Virus record (IMG/VR): IMGVR_UViG_3300046009_006182
Span: 1-34,162 of that record
Reading direction: 5' to 3' (one strand)
From: a virus
Length of the DNA stretch: 34,162 nt
Numbering within the stretch: position 1 is the stretch's first letter; every line of letters starts with the position of its first letter. Below the pieces are notes generated by a model. It saw only the letters and a list, made by a program, of their open reading frames with translations, ran no database searches and was not told the origin of the DNA. Positions 1,218 through 34,143 of this stretch are shown here, piece by piece. The position numbers were made by a program, and so were the translations under genes.

Positions 1218-2552
1218 TTAACTACGAATACCGGCTAGTTTCTTGAAGCGGTTTGCCATGTCGGCTCCTTCTGCAATAACTGCTGGTTTTGTTGGTTTGG
1301 TTGATGCAACCGATTTGCTGGCGAGACCTTCGGTGATAGTCTTGACGGTTGTTGATGCTGGCTTTTTGGCTGGCACAACTTCCTTCTTGGCACCGAAACT
1401 AAATGATTCTGCCAATGTTGCGTAAACGAGTTTTGCCTCACGAACAGACTTCGTTAGGTCAAATGATTCGATTACCTTTAGTTTCTGCTCGTTATTCAAG
1501 CTGGCTGCTTTGAACAATTTGTTCGTATACAGCAACTTGGCATTGAGCAGGTTTACTTCATTGATGCGGTCCCGTAGATATGTAACAGCGCTACGGTATT
1601 CTGCTAGTTCCTTCTTCAACGAAAGATTTTCTTTGATGATTGACTCGTTGGCTTCTTCCTTCTCGTCATCATGTTTTTCAGCTTTTTCGGCTTTTTCTTT
1701 TTGGTACTTTTTGAGGTGTTCGATGCCTTCATTGGCTTCTTCTTTTTCTTCTTCCTTTTCTTCCTCATCTTCACCTTCGGATAGAAGTTCGTCGAGGTTG
1801 ATCTCTTCGTCTTCTCCGTTACCAGCAGCAGCTTCCATTGGAGCGGACATTTCTTCCATTCCAACTTCATTTACGCTATTTTCCAGTTCTTTTAGGATTT
1901 CATCCAATGATTCTTCGTCGATTTCTTCGCCATCTCCTTCTTCAAGGGCGACTAATTCGTTTGAAGCACCTTGTGGATCTTCTGTGTGGTGACCGGCGGT
2001 GGTCTTGGTATAATCGGCAGAAGCTTTGCCATCTTTCTTAGTTGCTGGCAATGATCCTTTTGTACCACCAATTGATGAAGCGGCTGATTTGACCATGTTC
2101 TTACCTGGATCTTCGGTCTTGTGTCCAGCAGTGGTCTTTTTATAGTCAGGAGATGCTTTGTCACCTTCCTGAATATTTGAAGTAGCTAGTGTTGGATCTA
2201 GTTCTGCACCGATTGTTCCACGAATTGCTTCTTCGTCCATTTCTTCTTCTTCTGCCATTGGCATTTCTTCTGTAGGAGCAGCTTCTGGTGCGGGAGCAGC
2301 TGGTGCAGCTGGTGCAGCTGGAGCAGCTGCTTGTGCCATCATTGCTGCGTCTTGAGCAGCATCGGCGTGAACTTCTGGAGCAGGAGCAACTGGCAATGGT
2401 TCATCGCCTTCTACTTCTTGCTTTAGTTTTTCTGCGAGCATGCTTTGGATTTTTGGCGTAAAAGCTTCTTCCAAAGCAGCTTTGGCATTGGCGAGGGCGG
2501 TAGCACGTACTGCCTTAGCGTCTGCGATAGCTTGTTTTAATAGGTCTGACAT
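1218..2552 (-). CDS. 22: Prohead core scaffolding protein, T4 gp22-like
   Basis: The 444-aa product is the likely internal scaffold on which the capsid assembles and which the prohead protease then degrades. It is longer than T4 gp22 (269 aa). In order it has an N-terminal Ala-rich helix (1-45), an Ala/Pro stretch (52-93), an acidic segment, two copies of a KAS-x-DY-x-KTTAGH-x-TEDP repeat (132-150 and 176-194), a Glu/Asp/Lys-rich region (205-300), and a helical/coiled-coil region (302-384) containing NEVNLLNAKLLYTNKLF and VREAKLVYATLAES. I recognise that last region from scaffold proteins of marine T4-like phages. The C-terminus is MANRFKKLAGIRS. Its position between gp21 and gp23 supports the call. 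No clear Shine-Dalgarno precedes the ATG; the 150-nt leader is structured. Confidence 0.85.
   Translation of the reverse strand: MSDLLKQAIADAKAVRATALANAKAALEEAFTPKIQSMLAEKLKQEVEGDEPLPVAPAPEVHADAAQDAAMMAQAAAPAAPAAPAAPAPEAAPTEEMPMAEEEEMDEEAIRGTIGAELDPTLATSNIQEGDKASPDYKKTTAGHKTEDPGKNMVKSAASSIGGTKGSLPATKKDGKASADYTKTTAGHHTEDPQGASNELVALEEGDGEEIDEESLDEILKELENSVNEVGMEEMSAPMEAAAGNGEDEEINLDELLSEGEDEEEKEEEKEEANEGIEHLKKYQKEKAEKAEKHDDEKEEANESIIKENLSLKKELAEYRSAVTYLRDRINEVNLLNAKLLYTNKLFKAASLNNEQKLKVIESFDLTKSVREAKLVYATLAESFSFGAKKEVVPAKKPASTTVKTITEGLASKSVASTKPTKPAVIAEGADMANRFKKLAGIRS
1971..2159 (-). repeat. Two-copy direct repeat inside the scaffold gene
   Basis: Codons 132-150 (2103-2159) and 176-194 (1971-2027) of the scaffold gene encode near-identical 19-residue units, KASPDYKKTTAGHKTEDPG and KASADYTKTTAGHHTEDPQ. 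The unit period is 44 codons. The DNA is similar but not identical, so this is an older intragenic duplication. The units may be a binding patch presented twice; their function is unknown. Confidence 0.8.
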
Positions 2553-4719: not shown

Positions 4720-5349
4720 TTATCTTACTTCTGATAGAATATTACGGATAATATTTTCTATCTTTAGATATTTGTTGATGTCATTGGCTCCTACTGAAGC
4801 GATGACTTGACCACGATTTACACCCTCATTGATTGCACCCGGAGACATATAAGCACCGCGTGTTGATGGAGAACTTACAAGGTCAAAACAAAGTAGTTCA
4901 AAATCATCCTGAACTTCCACTGTATTTTCATTCATTTGGCGAACACTGCCAAGACCACGGCTGCTGATGCCAAGACGGACATTGTTCTTGATGAGTTCTC
5001 TAGCAATATTACCAGATGGTGTTGTCAATAGTTCAATCTTACCAACAACAGTATCGCCTTCCCAATGGCATTCTACTACGTTGTGGGATACGTTCTTTAG
5101 ATTGATAATAGAACTATCTGGATGGTCAAGTTCTCCAAGAGCACGACGTTCGCTTATGATTTGTTTATACTTTTCTATTTCGCGAGAAAGCACTTCTTTT
5201 GGATATACACGACCGTTGTGATTCTTTTCTCCTGCTTTTTGGAGTGGTCCAGACAATACAAGAGGTGCGTTTGGATTTGAACGTGCTTCGTTGAGCATCT
5301 GTGGCGAGATGTCAAATGGTATAAAATCTACTAGTAGTTGCTTGCTCAT
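4720..5349 (-). CDS. 21: Prohead maturation serine protease, T4 gp21-like
   Basis: The 209-aa product (T4 gp21 is 212 aa) is the core protease that cuts scaffold, internal and capsid proteins during head maturation. It shows the family pattern. The opening MSKQLLVDFIPFDI is followed by GPLQKAGEKNHNGRVYP (35-50), the His motif LGELDHPDS with His76, the Ser motif GISSRGLGS with Ser129/130 (127-135), and LLCFDLVSSPS with Asp156, giving a plausible His-Ser-Asp set. The C-terminus carries IIRNILSEVR, which fits the enzyme's own (I/L)-x-E cleavage consensus and may be a self-processing site. An AAGGAT Shine-Dalgarno lies before ATG 5349. It is 3 nt downstream of the 180-aa gene. Confidence 0.93.
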   Translation of the reverse strand: MSKQLLVDFIPFDISPQMLNEARSNPNAPLVLSGPLQKAGEKNHNGRVYPKEVLSREIEKYKQIISERRALGELDHPDSSIINLKNVSHNVVECHWEGDTVVGKIELLTTPSGNIARELIKNNVRLGISSRGLGSVRQMNENTVEVQDDFELLCFDLVSSPSTRGAYMSPGAINEGVNRGQVIASVGANDINKYLKIENIIRNILSEVR

Positions 5350-25883: not shown

Positions 25884-26519
25884 TTACTTCTTGTCAATGA
25901 TTTTATTTATTTCAGTATTTATTTTTTTTAGTTCCTTTTCGGCAGATTTTATTTTCTTGAGGCAAGTAACCCAATCTTTTTGTATATTCTTCTTAAGTTC
26001 TCCACGAGCCTCGTTGCTCCATTCTTCCACCATACCCGTAGAATTTGCCCAAGTTAATGTTTTAGAGTCTTCGCTTTCAAGATAGTCTTTGCTTTCACGC
26101 AACTTTTGTTTGATATCCAGCAAATATGATAGCTCATTCTCGATAATCTTTCTGGTCTCATACAACTTATACTGACCCTTGATTCGCAATGTAGTTTCTT
26201 CCGTTGCAACACAATCAAGGCACTTTTTTGTGCGATAAAACATCTTGCGATCCTGTTTTGTGCCCCAACGTATTTCTCTGTTGCAGCATTCGCATTTATC
26301 ATTCATCTCTTCGCGGATAATATCCATTACGCGAGTAACTGCCTGTGGGCCACCCTTGGTCTGTATCCATTGTTTACCGCTAGAGTCTGTCCAAGTTTCG
26401 TTTTCTTGGCGTATGATGTACTTTTCATCTCCTGTATACCCTACTTGTAGGAAAGGGCGTTGACCCTCCAAATATCCTTTAACGATGTCAATATTGCTTT
26501 TACCTTGTGCTTTTTTCAT
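25884..26519 (-). CDS. Putative zinc-binding protein, 211 aa, unknown function
   Basis: It begins MKKAQGKSNIDIVKGYLEGQ and RPFLQVGYTG, a start I associate with a T4-like phage protein of unknown function. Four cysteines form two CxxC knuckles (Cys76/Cys79 within KCECCNREI, and Cys100/Cys103 in KKCLDC), 20 residues apart, a probable structural zinc site. Residues 110-211 are a long charged helical region, likely coiled coil, ending KKINTEINKIIDKK. ATG 26519 has AAAAGG six bases upstream, preceded by a hairpin (26533-26564). It follows the 1297-aa gene and precedes the carbohydrate island. It could bind nucleic acid or act as a scaffold; nothing in the sequence decides. Confidence 0.78.
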   Translation of the reverse strand: MKKAQGKSNIDIVKGYLEGQRPFLQVGYTGDEKYIIRQENETWTDSSGKQWIQTKGGPQAVTRVMDIIREEMNDKCECCNREIRWGTKQDRKMFYRTKKCLDCVATEETTLRIKGQYKLYETRKIIENELSYLLDIKQKLRESKDYLESEDSKTLTWANSTGMVEEWSNEARGELKKNIQKDWVTCLKKIKSAEKELKKINTEINKIIDKK

Positions 26520-26575: not shown

Positions 26576-29500
26576 TTATATGGATATTCCGAGAATGTCA
26601 TTTGTTGCCGTTTTTATAGCATCGTATTCTTTAGGATTTAATCCTTCACCGGCTAATATTTCAGTAAAACGGCCCATAGCAATACCTATAGTCTTTTTAT
26701 CAAGATATTTTTTCATCAACCTAAGTAGTCCTTGATAACTGCGAAACTCTGCTCGTTCTTGAGGTGATGCCTTTTTACCAAATAATATTTCAAATATTTG
26801 ACCCACATCGATAATTCTATCTTCAGGTCTTGTCTCTTTTGCTTCGACAAATCTGTATGCATCCACCATTTTTCCGTTGTATGGCATAGTTTTTACAAAT
26901 TCATATGCACGACGGATGCCAGTACCACCACCGCCCGTGTTTAATGTATAAGCGGATGGAACGGCGTGTTGCGCCGCCTTTGTTATTTCTTTGTCAGTAA
27001 GTTCCTTTACTGCACCAGATTTAACTTTTTCTGCCGATTTAGGAGTGAGAACGACTGCATTGTCTAGCATGGTTGTTGCTCTTGCAAGAGACCGAAGCAT
27101 TAACGCACCGGCCAGCCCTTTGATTCCTTTTGTTAAATCTTCCCACGGAGAATCTTTGCTGAATTTTGTCCATTCGCTTGGTTTTTCGTATCCTTTAGAA
27201 TCTACAAACATATCATCCCCTTCAAAGTCTACTTGAACGACTTGACTCATTGGTGTATAATACCACAGTGTAACAAGTTGATCTGGAATTGAGGCGTAAC
27301 TTTTTGTTCGACCGACATAGTGAAATTTACTGGATAGTCTGTTTTGAGTCGTTGGTTTCCAATCGGCGTTATTGTCGTCAATACCGTCCAAGAATGCTTC
27401 CAATGCATCCAACTTTGATTTTGGAATAATAACATCGATATCGCCAAAAGAATCCTTGTATTTGCTTAATACGCCAAATTTGTCTGGATCCATGAGAAAT
27501 TGGGAACTGCCATTAAAAATAAATCCGTTTTCGATGTATGGATTATTCTTTTTCCAAAACCCAACTTTAGTATTCAACGCATATACAAGATCCTTGATGT
27601 CTCTTGATACTGCCGAATGAACGTCTTTACCTTGTGGATCAACGATTTTGAGTTTGGTGGTTGCTTGTGCAGGCTGTCCATTAACCATCTTTGGAGTTTT
27701 TGGGTCCACTGCGGCGACTGATTTTCCAGACTCGACCAAAATAGAGTAATATTCTTTTAAGATCTGTTTGGCTAATTCTGTACCTAAATCTGCATCTTTT
27801 TTTATTTTATCTACTGTTTTCATAGCGCTTGGTGTTTGTGCTTTTTCAAGTTTTTTTGCTGTTTTTGCGCGTTCCATCATATCAATATATGTGTCTCTTA
27901 CGCGATCAATAAATTGTTTTCTACTATTCATCACTTCGCCATCTTTTGAAGATATCACTCCAGATTTAAATATACCATTTTTTTCTAATGCATTTGCAAG
28001 TGCAATCACAGTCTCTAGTTTCTTTTTGAGAGACGGATCGTTGGCGTCAATACCCATATGACCAGATAATGATGACACATCAACATTATCTATTCCGGCT
28101 TTCTTTCCATAAAATCTTACTATTTCAGCAAACACTTCGTTTGGATTCAAAAACACTTGCTGTACGTTCTTTTTCACCAAAGATGATACAACATTACCAT
28201 TCAATGTATTTATATATGGGTTTGTGCTAGAACCAAGAACAACATTTAATGTATCAGCCAAAGAACTTAACACCATACCAGTAACAAATCCTTTCAATCC
28301 CCTTTGAGGGGTTGTTCTGGTAGATGTCCAATCTTCTGACACAGTGTATGAAAGTACAAGATCTACTTGTATCTTTTTACCATCGACGTTAAAAATCAAA
28401 TATCCAATACCAAATTCTGGATCAATAGACCCATCGTGAATATAACTTGGTTTCTTGAGTTTTATAAACTCACGTATTTTATTACCAAATGTATTATTAG
28501 ATTCTAGTTGGTCTTTTCTTTGATTGCTCTCTACTGGCAGCACCATCTGCATATCAACATCGCCATATACTACAGAAGGATCATTCAAATCTTCTTTATA
28601 ATACTTCCCGCTACCGGTTGGACCTTTTGTTTTTAACACGGGTAATCCAGACCATAAATTAAATTCTGACAGAAATTTTTCCATTTCACCTACAATTTTT
28701 GCTACAACTTTTGGCGTAACTTCCCATTCTTGTGTATCCTGATTTCTCCAACCGCCCTCATTAAACATTTCTTTTGCCAATTCATTGATGACTTCTTCAG
28801 CAAATTTCTTGTATGGATTTTCTTGTATCGGTTTTCTGGACATAAGAATATTCCATATTTCTTCTTTGTCGCGGTTTAATACTGGAGGAAGATATTTCAT
28901 AAACGAGTCTTTATCGTCGTTTGCTAAAAATTCGCGCATCTTTGTTCCACTGATATTAACGGTACTTGTTCTTTCTACGCCAACCTTTTCTATTTTGTTG
29001 CCAGCAAGTAACTCTGGAAATTTTTTCAAATCCTCGTCTTTGAAATTTACATCAACGTCGTCTTTATCTGAATATAATTTTACTGTCGGTACATTTGCCG
29101 AATCCTGTGTCAAAGATTGCTCTAACCAACCAAGCTCGTGCATGGCAGATCTTACTGGAGAATCTACAAATTTTACCTTTACATTTTTTGGTAACGCTGG
29201 AATTAAAATATCACTCCATATGGTAATAAAATCTTCACCATATATTGGAAATTCTCCTTTTTTAATACGGTCACTCAATGAAGTATATACAACCACATTA
29301 TCATTTTCTGACGCCGCCTTTTCTATTAGCTTCCAGTGTCCTATATGCAAAGGCTTTCCAGCGATTGGAATTAGTCCAATAGTTTTTGTAGTCCTTCCAA
29401 GTGTTTTTTCTTTTCCTACAAGAAGTCTGACTGTGTCATGGATGTCATCCATTATTTGTACTTTATTCTTTTTTCCGCCGACAATTTTGGATAACTCACT

Positions 29501-30469
29501 AAAAAATTTGCTCAACTTTTTCTCGTTCTTGGCAATATAAAAGTTGGTATCAGAAATAATATCTTCTTCCGACTTTTTGCCTGTTCCGATTTCAGCAAAT
29601 ACTTTCTGAATCAACGCACGTATTTGTTGAAAATATGCAGTAGCCGCTTCTGGATCTAATTTATAAAGTGCTTTCTTTTCTCCTCTAACTTCGGTATCAT
29701 ACTGATCGGGTTGTACAACTTTGTAAAATTCTCCATTTTCAAGTTTCATCACCACGCCTTCAGTTTTTCCACCAAGGCTAGACTCTACTGACAATATTGC
29801 GTCCGAAAATTTCTCCAATACATCCAAAGGATTATTCCAATTAACACTATTCAATTTTGGAGCAAGCAATCTATTTCCCATTAAACTTGACTGACTTAAA
29901 TCGCCGGAATGGAAAATAGGAAATGGAGATATCTGTAATAACTTTGCCATCTTTTCTACTTCACTGTATTCCGTTATTTCTTTCTCTGGCCTTGTAAACA
30001 AACTGCCACCAACAACTCTATACGCAACTTTGCTATAACTTCTCAAGAACATGCCGCCTTTATTTACATATGTTCTTGTCAGAGTATCTTTATTTTGAGC
30101 AAATTCCACGCTAAACTCCGTGGACTTTGGTATAGATTGTATTTGACCATTTATTTTATTCAAATGATCAAAAACAAGCACATATTGGCTTATTCCCACT
30201 GACGCTTGGGTTATGCCTTCTTTTTCTTTATCTCCAATATACGCGAATTCTTTAGGGTATAATACAGTTCCTTTATACGCAACTATCCAGTTCTTTGTAT
30301 AATCATTAGGATCATTTTCATTTGTTCTTACTAAAGTTAGTTTTGTACCATCAACTTTTTCTGTTACCACCATATTCTGACCAACAATATCGGTTGCTCT
30401 CTTTAAACGTAAAGACTCTGTTTTTGGTTCAAAAACGTGCTTCTTCAGATTTTTTATAGAAATGTCCAT
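26576..30469 (-). CDS. Four-domain nucleotidyl-transfer protein: RNA/DNA ligase-like, NMNAT-like (HIGH) and two pol-beta-type NTase domains, 1297 aa
   Basis: Domain 1 (1-270) is an ATP-dependent ligase-type adenylyltransferase: motif I EKVDG with Lys38, a motif III-like SVEFAQ with Glu122, motif IV EGVVMKL (237-243), and motif V YKVVQP with Lys250. Domain 2 (362-545) is a HIGH-superfamily nucleotidyltransferase: IGLIPIAGKPLHIGHWKLIE with HIGH 375-378, and NISGTKMREFL (505-515) matching the ISxTxxR motif. Domain 3 (580-870) has GPTGSGKYY, GDVDM with Asp637/639, and IQVDLVLS with Asp703. Domain 4 (960-1297) has NGSSQF, GDIDV with Asp1010/1012, and VVQVDFEGD with Asp1081. Domains 3 and 4 share a following helix (GLKGFVTGMVLSSLA and GIKGLAGALMLRSLA), so they look like a duplication. 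A role in RNA end repair or nucleotide/cofactor metabolism is inference. Confidence 0.85.
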   Translation of the reverse strand: MDISIKNLKKHVFEPKTESLRLKRATDIVGQNMVVTEKVDGTKLTLVRTNENDPNDYTKNWIVAYKGTVLYPKEFAYIGDKEKEGITQASVGISQYVLVFDHLNKINGQIQSIPKSTEFSVEFAQNKDTLTRTYVNKGGMFLRSYSKVAYRVVGGSLFTRPEKEITEYSEVEKMAKLLQISPFPIFHSGDLSQSSLMGNRLLAPKLNSVNWNNPLDVLEKFSDAILSVESSLGGKTEGVVMKLENGEFYKVVQPDQYDTEVRGEKKALYKLDPEAATAYFQQIRALIQKVFAEIGTGKKSEEDIISDTNFYIAKNEKKLSKFFSELSKIVGGKKNKVQIMDDIHDTVRLLVGKEKTLGRTTKTIGLIPIAGKPLHIGHWKLIEKAASENDNVVVYTSLSDRIKKGEFPIYGEDFITIWSDILIPALPKNVKVKFVDSPVRSAMHELGWLEQSLTQDSANVPTVKLYSDKDDVDVNFKDEDLKKFPELLAGNKIEKVGVERTSTVNISGTKMREFLANDDKDSFMKYLPPVLNRDKEEIWNILMSRKPIQENPYKKFAEEVINELAKEMFNEGGWRNQDTQEWEVTPKVVAKIVGEMEKFLSEFNLWSGLPVLKTKGPTGSGKYYKEDLNDPSVVYGDVDMQMVLPVESNQRKDQLESNNTFGNKIREFIKLKKPSYIHDGSIDPEFGIGYLIFNVDGKKIQVDLVLSYTVSEDWTSTRTTPQRGLKGFVTGMVLSSLADTLNVVLGSSTNPYINTLNGNVVSSLVKKNVQQVFLNPNEVFAEIVRFYGKKAGIDNVDVSSLSGHMGIDANDPSLKKKLETVIALANALEKNGIFKSGVISSKDGEVMNSRKQFIDRVRDTYIDMMERAKTAKKLEKAQTPSAMKTVDKIKKDADLGTELAKQILKEYYSILVESGKSVAAVDPKTPKMVNGQPAQATTKLKIVDPQGKDVHSAVSRDIKDLVYALNTKVGFWKKNNPYIENGFIFNGSSQFLMDPDKFGVLSKYKDSFGDIDVIIPKSKLDALEAFLDGIDDNNADWKPTTQNRLSSKFHYVGRTKSYASIPDQLVTLWYYTPMSQVVQVDFEGDDMFVDSKGYEKPSEWTKFSKDSPWEDLTKGIKGLAGALMLRSLARATTMLDNAVVLTPKSAEKVKSGAVKELTDKEITKAAQHAVPSAYTLNTGGGGTGIRRAYEFVKTMPYNGKMVDAYRFVEAKETRPEDRIIDVGQIFEILFGKKASPQERAEFRSYQGLLRLMKKYLDKKTIGIAMGRFTEILAGEGLNPKEYDAIKTATNDILGISI

Positions 30470-30763: not shown

Positions 30764-31729
30764 TCACCAAGAAGTAATAATAACCATACCCGGTCCACCA
30801 TTGCCGCCACGACCAACAGTATCTCCACCGCCACCACCGCCACCACCAGAGCCTATACCACCGTTTCCGCCCGCACCACCTACACCACCATCTCGGCCAC
30901 CACCACCTGCGCCACCAGAACTCAAGAATGGATATAGAAAATTTACGCCACTACTACCGGGATTAGATCCTGCGGCACCGCCCGCTGCAACAGCACCAGC
31001 GGTAGTAGGCCAGTTTATATATGTATAATTTATGGCAGACGCCGCAGTGACCGCTCCACCGGCAGTATTTGCGTCGTCTGATGCCCCTCCACCGGCCCCT
31101 CCAGATAGTGGTATAGATGCCCATGCAGTTGTTGATGGACCGGCGTTATTTCCAGAACCATTTCCGCCAGCCGCACCGACTTGTCCAGCAATTCCACCAA
31201 GAGCAATTCCCAGAGTACTGCCAAACATGGTATCAGATGCCGCCGTAGCAGCAACACCAGCCGTTCCAGCAGCATTGCTCGGTCCACCTCCACCACCACC
31301 CGCCGCCGCAGCATTTGACTGTATAAGTATACTTCGTGCCAGTGATGTGCTTGGTGTAAACGACACATATGATATACCACCAGCACTGCCATTGGCTCCA
31401 CCAGTCAGTCCACCTTGGCCACCGTCTCCTGCCAAAACATATAATATTTCTGGTAAAAAAAATGAAGGCACTATTAATCTATTTATTCCGGCACTGCCGC
31501 CTCCGCCACCGCCTCCTCTTTCTCTATCATCAACGCGACCAGCACCTCCACCTCCACCACCACCAATAGCGACGATGTATGTCATTGTTGATCCTTTTGG
31601 CTTGTTCCAAATTTTCCAATTATTATTTGAACCGCCTGTGCCTATACCACCAATAAATACATTTACATCATTTTTTAATGGATATGGTAAGTTGTAAAGG
31701 TCTGTTGGAGTTGATGGATGATTTATCAT
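30764..31729 (-). CDS. Glycine-rich tail fibre/adhesin protein, 321 aa (fibre paralog 3)
   Basis: This is the last and most diverged of three tandem paralogs. It starts with PSTPTDLYNLPYPLKNDVNV, then WKIWNKPKGSTMTYIVAIGG. Many poly-Gly tracts follow (60-75, 139-147, 277-310), separated by LIVPSFFLPEILYVLAGDGG and AASAINYTYINW. The C-terminus is GRGGNGGPGMVIITSW, shared in form with its paralogs. Gly runs of this density recall the polyglycine-II sandwich of T4-like adhesins (gp38 of phage S16), which binds the host receptor at the fibre tip. That comparison is by composition only; I see no direct alignment. It starts 3 nt after the stop of paralog 2. Confidence 0.8.
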   Translation of the reverse strand: MINHPSTPTDLYNLPYPLKNDVNVFIGGIGTGGSNNNWKIWNKPKGSTMTYIVAIGGGGGGGAGRVDDRERGGGGGGGSAGINRLIVPSFFLPEILYVLAGDGGQGGLTGGANGSAGGISYVSFTPSTSLARSILIQSNAAAAGGGGGGPSNAAGTAGVAATAASDTMFGSTLGIALGGIAGQVGAAGGNGSGNNAGPSTTAWASIPLSGGAGGGASDDANTAGGAVTAASAINYTYINWPTTAGAVAAGGAAGSNPGSSGVNFLYPFLSSGGAGGGGRDGGVGGAGGNGGIGSGGGGGGGGDTVGRGGNGGPGMVIITSW

Positions 31730-31731
31730 AA

Positions 31732-31759
31732 TTTACCAAGAAAATATAGCGACCATTCC
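31732..31759. repeat. 28-bp block shared by fibre genes 2 and 1 (3' ends)
   Basis: These 28 bases, covering the last codons and stop of fibre paralog 2, are identical to 32704-32731 at the end of paralog 1. With the shared 5' blocks it gives near-identical gene ends around diverged centres, a substrate for recombination between the fibre genes. Confidence 0.8.
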
Positions 31760-32698
31760 GTTGCCACCGTTGCCGCCACGACCTCCGGTAGTGCCTGCGC
31801 CTCCGCCGCCCCCGCCGCAACCTATACCACCTTTACCGCCATTTCCCGCAGTGGAAAGAGCGGCACTGCCTCCCCCAGCACCACCAGATTGTAAAAATGG
31901 ACCGTCAATAAAGTTAATACCTGCATCTCCATTTAAGTTTGGGTTAAAGACTCCACCACCGGCTGCGACTGAATTAACTGTAGTAAAGTTCATTTTTGGA
32001 AAATTAAAATCAGACACTGATGCTATACTTCCACCTTGAAAATCAGCGGGCAACGCGCCAACTGAGGGAGAGGCACCACCCGCACCGGATGATATTGGTC
32101 TTATACTCCAAGCAGTAATAGATGTACCATTGTTACCTGTTATCGCACCACCGGCACCACCCGCTTGACCTACTACTCCGGAGTATATTCCAAGCGTGCT
32201 GTGTACTGACCCAGCTGCTCCATCGGCGGCTGTACCAGCAGCACCTGCTGCGCCAACTAACCCAGCACCACCTCCGCCAGCGGGAGTAGATTCTGAAGAA
32301 ATCAAAGAATTTTGAGCGGCATATGCTAATGGACTAAACAATACATGAGATGTTGTAGCAGCACCACCAGCTGTACTAACATTGCCGCCCAATCCTCCAA
32401 CACCAACTCTGATATATAAACTATTTGGTAAAAGAAATGATGGTATAATTAATTTTGTTATTGAACCACTACCACCTCCTCCACCACCGCCGCCGTTAGT
32501 GGTGGATGGTTTTTGATGCCCACCGCCTCCACCGCCCCCGCCGCCAACAAGAAAAAAATAAGTCATGCTTGTACCACGAGGTTTGATCCATTGTTGATAG
32601 TTTATAGTAGATTGGTTATTAGCATGAAATATCTGAACATCTCCTTTAAAATTTGAAGGAAAGTTAAATACATCCGATGGTGTTGCTGGAAAATTCAT
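31733..32698 (-). CDS. Glycine-rich tail fibre/adhesin protein, 321 aa (fibre paralog 2)
   Basis: This is the middle copy of the fibre triplet. The N-terminal 45 residues (MNFPATPSDVFNFPSNF, then GDVQIFHANNQSTINYQQWI) and the C-terminal block (GRGGNGGNGMVAIFSW) are nearly identical to paralog 1, while the central 200 residues differ. The centre has Gly-rich tracts at about 52-60, 70-76, 139-144 and 295-303, with repeating strands such as LIIPSFLLPNSLYIRVGVGG and TTVNSVAAGGG. The repeated GG-x-GG pattern fits a polyglycine-type adhesin head on a conserved attachment end. ATG 32698 is 6 nt after the previous stop. Receptor specificity cannot be told from the sequence. Confidence 0.8.
   Translation of the reverse strand: MNFPATPSDVFNFPSNFKGDVQIFHANNQSTINYQQWIKPRGTSMTYFFLVGGGGGGGGGHQKPSTTNGGGGGGGGSGSITKLIIPSFLLPNSLYIRVGVGGLGGNVSTAGGAATTSHVLFSPLAYAAQNSLISSESTPAGGGGAGLVGAAGAAGTAADGAAGSVHSTLGIYSGVVGQAGGAGGAITGNNGTSITAWSIRPISSGAGGASPSVGALPADFQGGSIASVSDFNFPKMNFTTVNSVAAGGGVFNPNLNGDAGINFIDGPFLQSGGAGGGSAALSTAGNGGKGGIGCGGGGGGAGTTGGRGGNGGNGMVAIFSW
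32601..32635. repeat. 35-bp block shared by fibre genes 2 and 1 (5' ends)
   Basis: The sequence at 32601-32635 matches 33579-33613 with a single mismatch. It encodes the FHANNQSTIN region of both proteins. Sequence similarity drops further into the genes. Confidence 0.8.
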
Positions 32699-32704
32699 AA
32701 AAGT

Positions 32705-33676
32705 TTACCAAGAAAATATAGCGACCATTCCATTGCCTCCATTACCACCCCTACCGGCAGTAACTCCCGCACCCCCTCCGCCACCCCCGCAACCTATACC
32801 ACCTTTGCCACCAGTTCCAGCAGATGTAGCACCTGTACCCGCAGCGTTACTGCCGCCCCCCGCACCACCAGATTGCAAAAATGGAATATCAAGAAAATTA
32901 ATACCAGCACTACCATTGTTTGCGGATGTTGTACCACCTGTACCACCGGCAGCAACACCGCCAGTACTGTTTGTAAAATTTATACGAGTAAAATTAATCG
33001 CAGACGCCGCAGTTACTCCTCCGCCGTTGAAATTTGTACTGGTACAACCAGCACCACCGGCACCGGAAGATATTGGTCTGGCAGCAAAAGCAGTTACTCC
33101 TCCACCGTTTGCTCCAGTTTGCGCACCGCCCGCGATGCCTGCTTGGCCAACCACAGTAGTAAATAATCCAAAACTGGATTGCACAGTTTGCGTCGCTACT
33201 GTTGGAATAGTACCAGCGGCACCGGCTGCACCAAGAGTACCGCCACCTCCACCACCGGGAGCATTTGTGTTTGATGAAAGTAACGAGTTTTGAGCAACAA
33301 ACGAAAGCGGTGAAAGCATTATATATGAATTTGTACCCGCACCACCGTTAGTGCTTGCTCCTCCACCCAACCCACCAACACCAACTTGAATATATAAACT
33401 GTCTGGTAAAAGAAATGTAGGCACAATTAACGTCGATATACCAGAGCACGCACCACCACCTCCACCTCCACCTGCTGTACCAGACGCTTTTTGATGCCCA
33501 CCACCGCCTCCGCCCCCGCCGCCAATAGCAATCATATATACCATACTTGTGCCTCTAGGCTTTATCCACTGTTGAAAATTTATAGTAGATTGGTTATTGG
33601 CATGAAATATCTGTACATCCGCATTTAAATCGGAAGGTATGTTAAATAGATCTGATGGCGTGGCTGGAAAATTCAT
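32705..33676 (-). CDS. Glycine-rich tail fibre/adhesin protein, 323 aa (fibre paralog 1)
   Basis: This is the first copy of the triplet in transcription order. I start it at ATG 33676 (MNFPATPSDLFNIP), which matches paralog 2; the longer frame begins with TTG at 33697. It has the same plan: a conserved N-terminus to about residue 45, poly-Gly near 52-76 (GGGGGGGGGHQK, then a second run), LIVPTFLLPDSLYIQVGVGG, many Gly/Ala/Thr turns, then a C-terminal GGKGGIGCGGGGGGAG followed by GRGGNGGNGMVAIFSW. It carries single Cys residues near turns, not a clear motif. It is probably a receptor-binding fibre tip or a fibre domain, judged by composition and tandem copies. Confidence 0.82.
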   Translation of the reverse strand: MNFPATPSDLFNIPSDLNADVQIFHANNQSTINFQQWIKPRGTSMVYMIAIGGGGGGGGGHQKASGTAGGGGGGGACSGISTLIVPTFLLPDSLYIQVGVGGLGGGASTNGGAGTNSYIMLSPLSFVAQNSLLSSNTNAPGGGGGGTLGAAGAAGTIPTVATQTVQSSFGLFTTVVGQAGIAGGAQTGANGGGVTAFAARPISSGAGGAGCTSTNFNGGGVTAASAINFTRINFTNSTGGVAAGGTGGTTSANNGSAGINFLDIPFLQSGGAGGGSNAAGTGATSAGTGGKGGIGCGGGGGGAGVTAGRGGNGGNGMVAIFSW

Positions 33677-33693
33677 AACAATTTTTAATATCG

Positions 33694-34143
33694 TCAATAA
33701 TCACTGCCTATCACAAGTGCTTCCCAGTTTTGATTGGTTGTTTGTTGCGCGTGCTGAGATACAAGTAGATATGTATTTGCTGGCATAGCAAAGTTTAATG
33801 GCAGTTCATAAAAGTTTGTTGCGTTAGTAGCGTTGGCACTTGCTAATGCACCAACAGATATTTCTCCTAGCAAAAATGACTGACCGGTAGTTGGTGTACC
33901 TGTATTTACTGTGCTATAATGACAACGAAGTACTGTTGCTACACCTGTTGTTGGTGTAGTTGCTATGCTCATAAATCTTATCTTTTGAACATAACTACCA
34001 GAAGGTCCAGAAGTAAAAGCAACAAACTGATTGGTACCAATAGCAACACCCGCATCACTACGTGCTGCTGCTGCGGTGGTTGTTATATCTATTCCGTTTA
34101 ATCTTGGTGTTAGTCCGAATATTGGTGATGTATTTTGTGGCAT
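33694..34143 (-). CDS. Probable virion-associated beta-rich protein, 149 aa
   Basis: The sequence begins MPQNTSPIFGLTPRLNGIDI, has strand-like segments (FVAFTSGPSGSYVQKIRFMS, VATVLRCHYSTVN, FLLGEISVGALA) and ends NWEALVIGSDY. I associate the pattern of an N-terminal NTSPIF and a C-terminal (G/S)DY, with a Thr/Ala-rich beta sandwich between them, with small structural proteins common in tailed phages. No enzyme motif is visible. It lies 17 nt upstream of the first fibre gene and likely shares its transcription. A tail, fibre or capsid decoration role is inferred from context. Confidence 0.72.
   Translation of the reverse strand: MPQNTSPIFGLTPRLNGIDITTTAAAARSDAGVAIGTNQFVAFTSGPSGSYVQKIRFMSIATTPTTGVATVLRCHYSTVNTGTPTTGQSFLLGEISVGALASANATNATNFYELPLNFAMPANTYLLVSQHAQQTTNQNWEALVIGSDY

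Follow-up and report, generated by a model that had tools for sequence, protein, structure and literature searches.

A ligase-nucleotidyltransferase module of T4-like phages, fused in one viral gene with prohead-protease-type sites between its domains

Domain architecture of the polyprotein

The 34 kb viral contig analyzed here (IMG/VR virus record IMGVR_UViG_3300046009_006182, positions 1 to 34,162; 34,162 nucleotides, herein the window) comes from a large T4-like virus of bacteria, and its minus strand carries a single ATG-initiated open reading frame (ORF; 26576..30469) of 1297 residues without an internal stop. The encoded polyprotein has the domain order LIG-NT-PB1-PB2: an Rnl2-like ligase, a nucleotidyltransferase of the HIGH superfamily, and two nucleotidyltransferases of the pol-beta type. 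LIG-NT and PB2 form a previously unnamed module of T4-like phages, of which this ORF appears to be the fused form with PB1 added. From the domains, their conserved motifs, the gene linkage, the protease-type sites, and a protease gene in the window, we infer a fused polyprotein that is cut by the prohead protease during maturation, probably packaged and injected, and whose biological role lies in acting on RNA ends; taken as a whole, this reading falls a little short of an even chance. The original prediction of four nucleotidyl-transfer domains with intact motifs in one protein is borne out by motifs and folds, for PB2 mainly by motifs; the likely head maturation and packaging context is absent from it.

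Full-length, intact homologues of the ORF at 64-77% identity occur on many IMG/VR contigs. Library scans return an RNA-ligase match just below the Pfam cut-off (residues 33-246), “cytidyltransferase” PHROGs covering residues 362-557, and two unnamed PHROGs, phrog_27149 (residues 2-400) and phrog_19290 (residues 970-1275). Homologues were gathered from IMG/VR and cultured phages; the alignments used for AlphaFold exclude rows taken from annotated phage records. The model of residues 1-560, based on 42 phage homologues, has a predicted local distance difference test score (pLDDT) of 93.7 and a predicted template modeling score (pTM) of 0.89; a second model, of residues 545-1297, has a pLDDT of 81.8 and a pTM of 0.53. 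Together they show the LIG, NT, and PB1 folds that the original prediction had named.

LIG, an Rnl2-like covalent nucleotidyltransferase/ligase with a helical tail, spans residues 1-357 (29399..30469, minus strand, as are all window features below); the ligase unit had been placed at residues 1-270, and its end is corrected here to about residue 357 so as to include the helical tail, on a gene that runs along the minus strand. K38, D40, and G41 belong to motif I, E122 to motif III, E237 and G238 to motif IV, and K250 to motif V, and all seven are identical in 44/44 representative LIG-NT homologues; the catalytic residues of LIG, like those of PB2, are unchanged down to ∼26% identity. LIG matches phrog_27149 (E 2e-33) and scores 25.4 bits against PF09414 when residues 1-560 are searched and 23.1 bits for the whole ORF (cut-off 27); 21 of 42 relatives match this family at E <= 0.01. 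The model retrieves T4 Rnl2 in complex with an adenylated nick (2hvr; Foldseek E 1.6e-7) and a Naegleria RNA ligase (Z 12.2 over 187 residues, 3.7 Å), so that the predicted fold lies nearest to RNA ligases, not DNA ligases. Judged by this modeled fold, RNA is somewhat favored as the substrate. LIG thus resembles T4 RNA ligase 2 and the Rnl2 type (PF09414) in its fold, in motifs I, III, and IV, and in its helical C-terminal unit, but differs in falling under the Pfam cut-off and in being permanently linked to a HIGH nucleotidyltransferase. Weak enterotoxin-B and cholera-toxin matches (residues 221-282) fall within the motif IV-V fold of the ligase and were dismissed as chance.

NT occupies residues 361-548 (28826..29389), with HxGH at 375-378 and ISGTKMR at 506-512. 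It matches phrog_395/3041, has a profile match to the archaeal NMNAT 1f9a (E 1.6e-7), and in the model resembles NadD/PPAT/NMNAT (Z ∼12). The motif residues H375/H378 and S507/T509/R512 are present in the window protein; among 44 homologues, H378 is kept in all 44, H375 in 32, and R512 in 36. HxGH and ISxTxxR have decayed in about a quarter of relatives (12/44), in which the ligase is intact. NT therefore shares its fold and the HxGH/ISGTxxR motifs with NMNAT, NadD, and PPAT enzymes but departs from them in this decay and in lying far below all NCBIfam equivalog cut-offs (TIGR01526, NMNAT/NadR: 20.7 of 341 bits). Freely varying catalytic residues, which would count against the original prediction, are thus found in part for NT, whereas those of LIG and PB2 never vary. 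The loss of NT motifs in ligase-intact relatives speaks against a core function in NAD salvage, which was proposed earlier and which we have rejected. A broader version, in which the protein salvages a cofactor (NAD or a CDP compound) or makes nucleoside diphosphate (NDP)-sugars in connection with neighboring glycosyltransferases, would suit the NT fold and the glycosyltransferase genes that adjoin the ORF in the window; against it stand the same motif loss, the low equivalog scores, and the absence of glycosyltransferases from the annotated recurrent neighbor families, and we regard it as very improbable.

PB1 (residues 572-890; 27800..28756) is a pol-beta/mu-like nucleotidyltransferase, identified by its GS, DxD, and D motifs and by a structure match. 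The residues GS 619-620, D637, D639, and D703 are invariant in 7 PB1-clade sequences, and the palm of the model aligns to Pol beta and Pol mu (Z ∼8). PB1 is restricted to the clade of the window, absent from L027, L046, and L049-L051 and without a match among cultured phages; it is an optional add-on of this clade. Its best structural matches, the DNA polymerases Pol beta and Pol mu, together with the position of the module among packaging and head genes, could point to an injected kit for DNA ends that would fill gaps in the phage genome, incoming or packaged, and seal its nicks or ends, much as in base-excision or end-joining repair. Yet most lineages have no PB1, LIG is nearest to RNA ligases rather than DNA ligases, and the PB1 match does not fix the substrate, since the PDB is rich in Pol beta and Pol mu structures; we consider a DNA-end kit improbable. 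The PB1 region (residues 536-716; 28322-28864) also has a weak PADLOC oligonucleotide cyclase match that is not significant (E 0.03) and agrees with a CD-NTase/OAS-like fold class.

PB2 (residues 914-1297; 26579..27730) matches phrog_19290 (E 2e-29), and its residues G987, S988, D1010, D1012, and D1081 are invariant in 57-61 diverse sequences. Its assignment to the pol-beta type is made from these motifs, the order of secondary-structure elements, and weaker matches; in the model of residues 545-1297 the catalytic residues lie on well-predicted strands. PB1 and PB2 share the GS...DxD...D motifs, and PB1 also the palm, with the DNA polymerase X family (Pol beta, Pol mu) and terminal uridylyltransferases, from which they differ in having no PDB sequence match at E <= 5 except chance hits. 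For an origin of PB1 as a duplicate of PB2 the hhalign match is too weak (probability 1.7%, E 0.03), although both domains begin E↓(G/S)G (the arrow marks a putative cut). Membership of PB2 or PB1 in RlaP was set aside for want of a family match; 57 members gave none to the RlaP Pfam family at E <= 1, an absence by sequence alone. A weak match to the crAss001 auxiliary capsid protein family PF25650 was obtained for four PB2 members (best E 0.0015), and a BFVD protein of 1096 residues that matches the PB model is named ParB/Sulfiredoxin.

Distribution and arrangement of the module

The module occurs in several arrangements. LIG-NT-PB1-PB2 is the form of the window clade, LIG-NT-PB2 fusions are found elsewhere (e.g., L027, L046, and L049-L051), and in L140-L154 a single protein has the opposite order, PB2-LIG-NT. 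In this last group NT was detected by a hidden Markov model in most members, and LIG has a modest colinear profile match (31.6% probability) that places motif I on I and IV-V on IV-V, as well as a strong match (99%) to the ligase ORFs of Xanthomonas phage X1 and Stenotrophomonas phage Mendera. Among 46 non-redundant LIG copies, PB2 lies directly upstream in 26 (gap -81 to +52 nt), is fused in 9, and is within 3 kb in 6; PB2 is present in 23 of the 24 module-bearing records. X1 (L032) and Mendera (L159) have PB2, X, LIG, and NT as consecutive genes near a baseplate hub gene, where protein X, between PB2 and LIG (L032:8840-9844; L159:8872-9816), has no family match. Campylobacter phages carry LIG-NT and PB2 far apart within one genome. 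Campylobacter phage IBB_35 and Vibrio phage Va1 are among the isolated phages that bear the module. The “self-contained” polypeptide of the original prediction exists as a gene; given separate adjacent genes in relatives and protease-type sites between the domains of the fusion, the one-polypeptide state is probably only the form of the gene.

A collection of bacterial and archaeal genomes yielded a single match, which lies in a Cloacimonadota metagenome-assembled genome on a contig of 5.8 kb; the module therefore looks phage-specific, and a cellular origin was set aside. A separate Rnl1-type RNA ligase is encoded in 8/24 records, among them those of all four cultured phages, and the module thus cannot simply be regarded as the sole RNA ligase of its phage. 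Literature searches aimed at a packaged or fused ligase-HIGH-polbeta module found no description of one in the titles and abstracts that they covered, a scope beyond which lie most subscription texts and the primary RNA-repair survey cited by PMC7824862; part of the module may have been mentioned before. X1, Mendera, and CPt10 each have genes of the QueC/QueE or queuine-transferase type near the module (L032, L159, and L031 flanks), and two genes after NT in Mendera (L159:11248-11649) there is a ParB/sulfiredoxin-like sequence (DGHHRW, by eye) without a Pfam match.

Prohead-protease-type sites and putative targeting peptides

The T4 prohead protease gp21 cuts after L/I-X-E (PMC9026906), and the window protein has two putative sites of this kind, each placed directly before a pol-beta-type domain. 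The first, FNE↓GG (E571/G572; 28751..28765), precedes PB1; EGGWR is invariant in the PB1 alignment, and relatives read LNE↓GGW or LGE↓GGW at the equivalent position. The second, LVE↓SG (E913/S914; 27725..27739), precedes PB2 in a linker modeled with low confidence and is the sole [LI]xE[AGS] match in the protein; an LxE-type site stands before PB2 in 9/9 non-redundant fusions. Across 18 fusions, [LIF]xE[AGS] occurs 42 times in 3563 linker or N-terminal residues and 18 times in 14905 domain-core residues, a 9.8-fold enrichment (binomial p 2e-17, shared ancestry uncorrected), compared with 0.17- to 1.2-fold for five control motifs. As background, 17% of ORFs at the representative loci, module genes included, have [LI]xE[AGS] within their first 45 residues.

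Where the domains are encoded separately, similar sites occupy their N termini. Of 54 non-redundant PB2 copies, 18 start M-GGN, 30 have an N-terminal extension, and 6 are fused. In the extensions Glu directly precedes GGN in 30/30, with Leu (21), Ile (7), Val (1), or Phe (1) two residues earlier; the six fused copies read LxE↓SG(Q/K) or LSE↓AEG at the position equivalent to E↓GGN. LIG extensions likewise have a hydrophobic-x-E site in 11/11, several within peptides such as MMTFKTFVKRNDFITE↓AAKN. Several PB2 and LIG extensions of relatives resemble the capsid-targeting peptides of T4, in which targeting depends on residues 4 and 7 within the first ten of IPIII (PMC9026906); in the T4 record, with cut positions placed by consensus, IPIII begins MKTYQEFIAE↓A and IPI MKTFKEFTSTTTPVSTITE↓A (MKTFKEF...TITE↓A). 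Since such peptides are found in many relatives, packaging of the products in the head is probable. From these motifs and the genomic context we think cutting and packaging probable for the family, and for the window protein itself evenly balanced.

The 18 PB2 copies that start M-GGN show that a GGN N terminus can arise by Met removal alone. They are consistent with a different account, in which the enzymes would be made late in infection and repair RNA (tRNA) in the cytoplasm, unpackaged, E↓GGN reflecting a requirement that PB2 begin with a free glycine. Pairs of RNA ligase and pol-beta repair enzymes are known in phages, and the window clade has no targeting peptide, as this account would have it. 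It has more difficulty with the targeting-peptide-like N termini on PB2 and LIG in several lineages and with the repeated placement of the module among head genes; moreover, Rnl1 in 8/24 records, the four cultured phages among them, would often make a cytoplasmic module ligase redundant. We judge cytoplasmic repair rather unlikely.

Genomic setting among head genes

T4-like head genes for the portal, the large terminase, and a gp21-type prohead protease share the strand of the ORF. The protease (4720..5349) is a prohead core serine protease of the T4 gp21 type (PF03420, E 8.8e-25, 87.8 bits against a cut-off of 27; phrog_207) and is proposed as the processing enzyme of the polyprotein. It has one [LI]xE[AGS] site near each of its ends, and a 444-residue protein (1218..2552) without a family match, scaffold-like (gp22-like) by pattern and position only, has seven; the pattern in these two proteins is as expected of substrates of scaffold and protease type. 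An S77 protease is present in 19/24 module-bearing records, including all four cultured phages. Genes that recur beside the module include those for the major head protein (13 loci, in most of them upstream), for a head-tail (neck) adaptor downstream (17), and for a tail sheath (14). The major head proteins of L059, L060, L064-L066, and others start MSK(S/T)F(S/T)LxxLxE↓G, a protease-type motif as in the module.

Packaging would also suit a role in modifying host targets, in which nucleotides would be transferred to a host protein or RNA by NT or the PB domains, by a logic like that of T4 Alt, with LIG joining a carrier or charging it. In T4, internal proteins are packaged and injected, and they act on the host as infection begins (PMC3012670, PMC9026906); enzymes of the pol-beta type have been described, in phage polyvalent proteins, as modifiers of proteins (PMC5512222). 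A protein target has no direct evidence, though, and LIG carries the catalytic motifs of polynucleotide ligases; we find this role distinctly improbable.

Proposed mechanism and significance

In the preferred reading, a protease-matured and packaged set of RNA-end enzymes, the ORF would be expressed with the late head and tail genes among which it lies. The gp21-type protease would then probably cut after (L/I/F)-x-E at E571 and E913 to release LIG-NT, PB1, and PB2, which would probably be packaged in the head and enter the cell along with the DNA. PB2 (and PB1) may add nucleotides to RNA 3′ ends or restore them there, LIG would self-adenylate at K38 and seal RNA breaks with 5′-phosphate and 3′-OH ends, and NT may serve as an accessory adenylyl or cytidylyl transferase that is dispensable in some lineages. 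RNA damage caused by host defenses would in this way be undone or pre-empted ahead of phage gene expression. RNA repair is the most economical function for the set; the further step, that a pre-made, protease-matured end-repair complex is injected and acts before phage gene expression as a previously undescribed class of counter-defense, we advance only as a possibility, and one that may well prove wrong.

Two known systems offer partial precedents. Phages pair RNA ligases with the pol-beta enzyme RlaP, which restores lost nucleotides before ligation (PMC7824862); the module likewise joins a pol-beta nucleotidyltransferase to an ATP-grasp-type RNA ligase, but it also has a HIGH domain and head-protease sites and occurs as direct fusions in two orders. 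T4 internal proteins have been described as injected defense proteins (PMC3012670). With IPI-IPIII and Alt the module shares an N-terminal peptide in relatives of the form MKTFxxF...(I/L)xE↓A/G, a gp21-type protease, and a setting among late head genes, and it differs in its cargo, a ligase/nucleotidyltransferase set, in having fusion sites between enzyme domains, and in that packaging is predicted.

Several observations weigh against this scheme. An N-terminal targeting peptide is missing from the window protein, and in about a quarter of relatives neither such a peptide nor E↓GGN is present (PB2 starts M-GGN, LIG starts DISI). The p-value for site enrichment overstates the case, as homologous proteins do not provide independent events. 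S77 was not found in 5/24 records, two of them with E↓GGN, where the records may be fragments. LIG has one lysine in motif V against the canonical KxK, the PB2 fold match is weak, PB1 dominating the structure-search rows, and the module has no 3′-phosphatase or kinase. The CP220 gel bands, as far as the source quotes them, name neither module protein. Band CPT_0103 of the CP220 virion (57.2 kDa, close to the mass of LIG-NT) was considered as evidence of packaging and discarded, being a tail fibre gene by gene number, size, and position. The study of IBB_35 found 38 virion proteins, 25 of them without homology.

The analysis brings hypothetical phage families (phrog_27149, phrog_19290, and the “cytidyltransferase” families) together as one coherent enzyme module and supplies new candidate RNA ligases and terminal nucleotidyltransferases. 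It makes a testable prediction, that purified virions contain the proteins with defined, cut N termini, and E↓GGN may serve as a rule for finding packaged enzymes in phage genomes. If the module is packaged, RNA (or DNA) repair could run ahead of gene expression, which would shift the time at which phages answer host defenses that cleave RNA.

Other features of the window

Genes for glycosyltransferases and for glycine-rich tail proteins are also present in the window. Immediately downstream of the module lies a gene for a 211-residue protein with CxxC pairs (25884-26519, minus strand), zinc-ribbon-like and without a Pfam or PHROG match, and in 8 representative loci another member of its family adjoins the module (e.g., L050 3833-4432). 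The region 30764-33697 (minus strand) holds three tandem glycine-rich, tail-fibre-like paralogues of 321, 321, and 330 residues.

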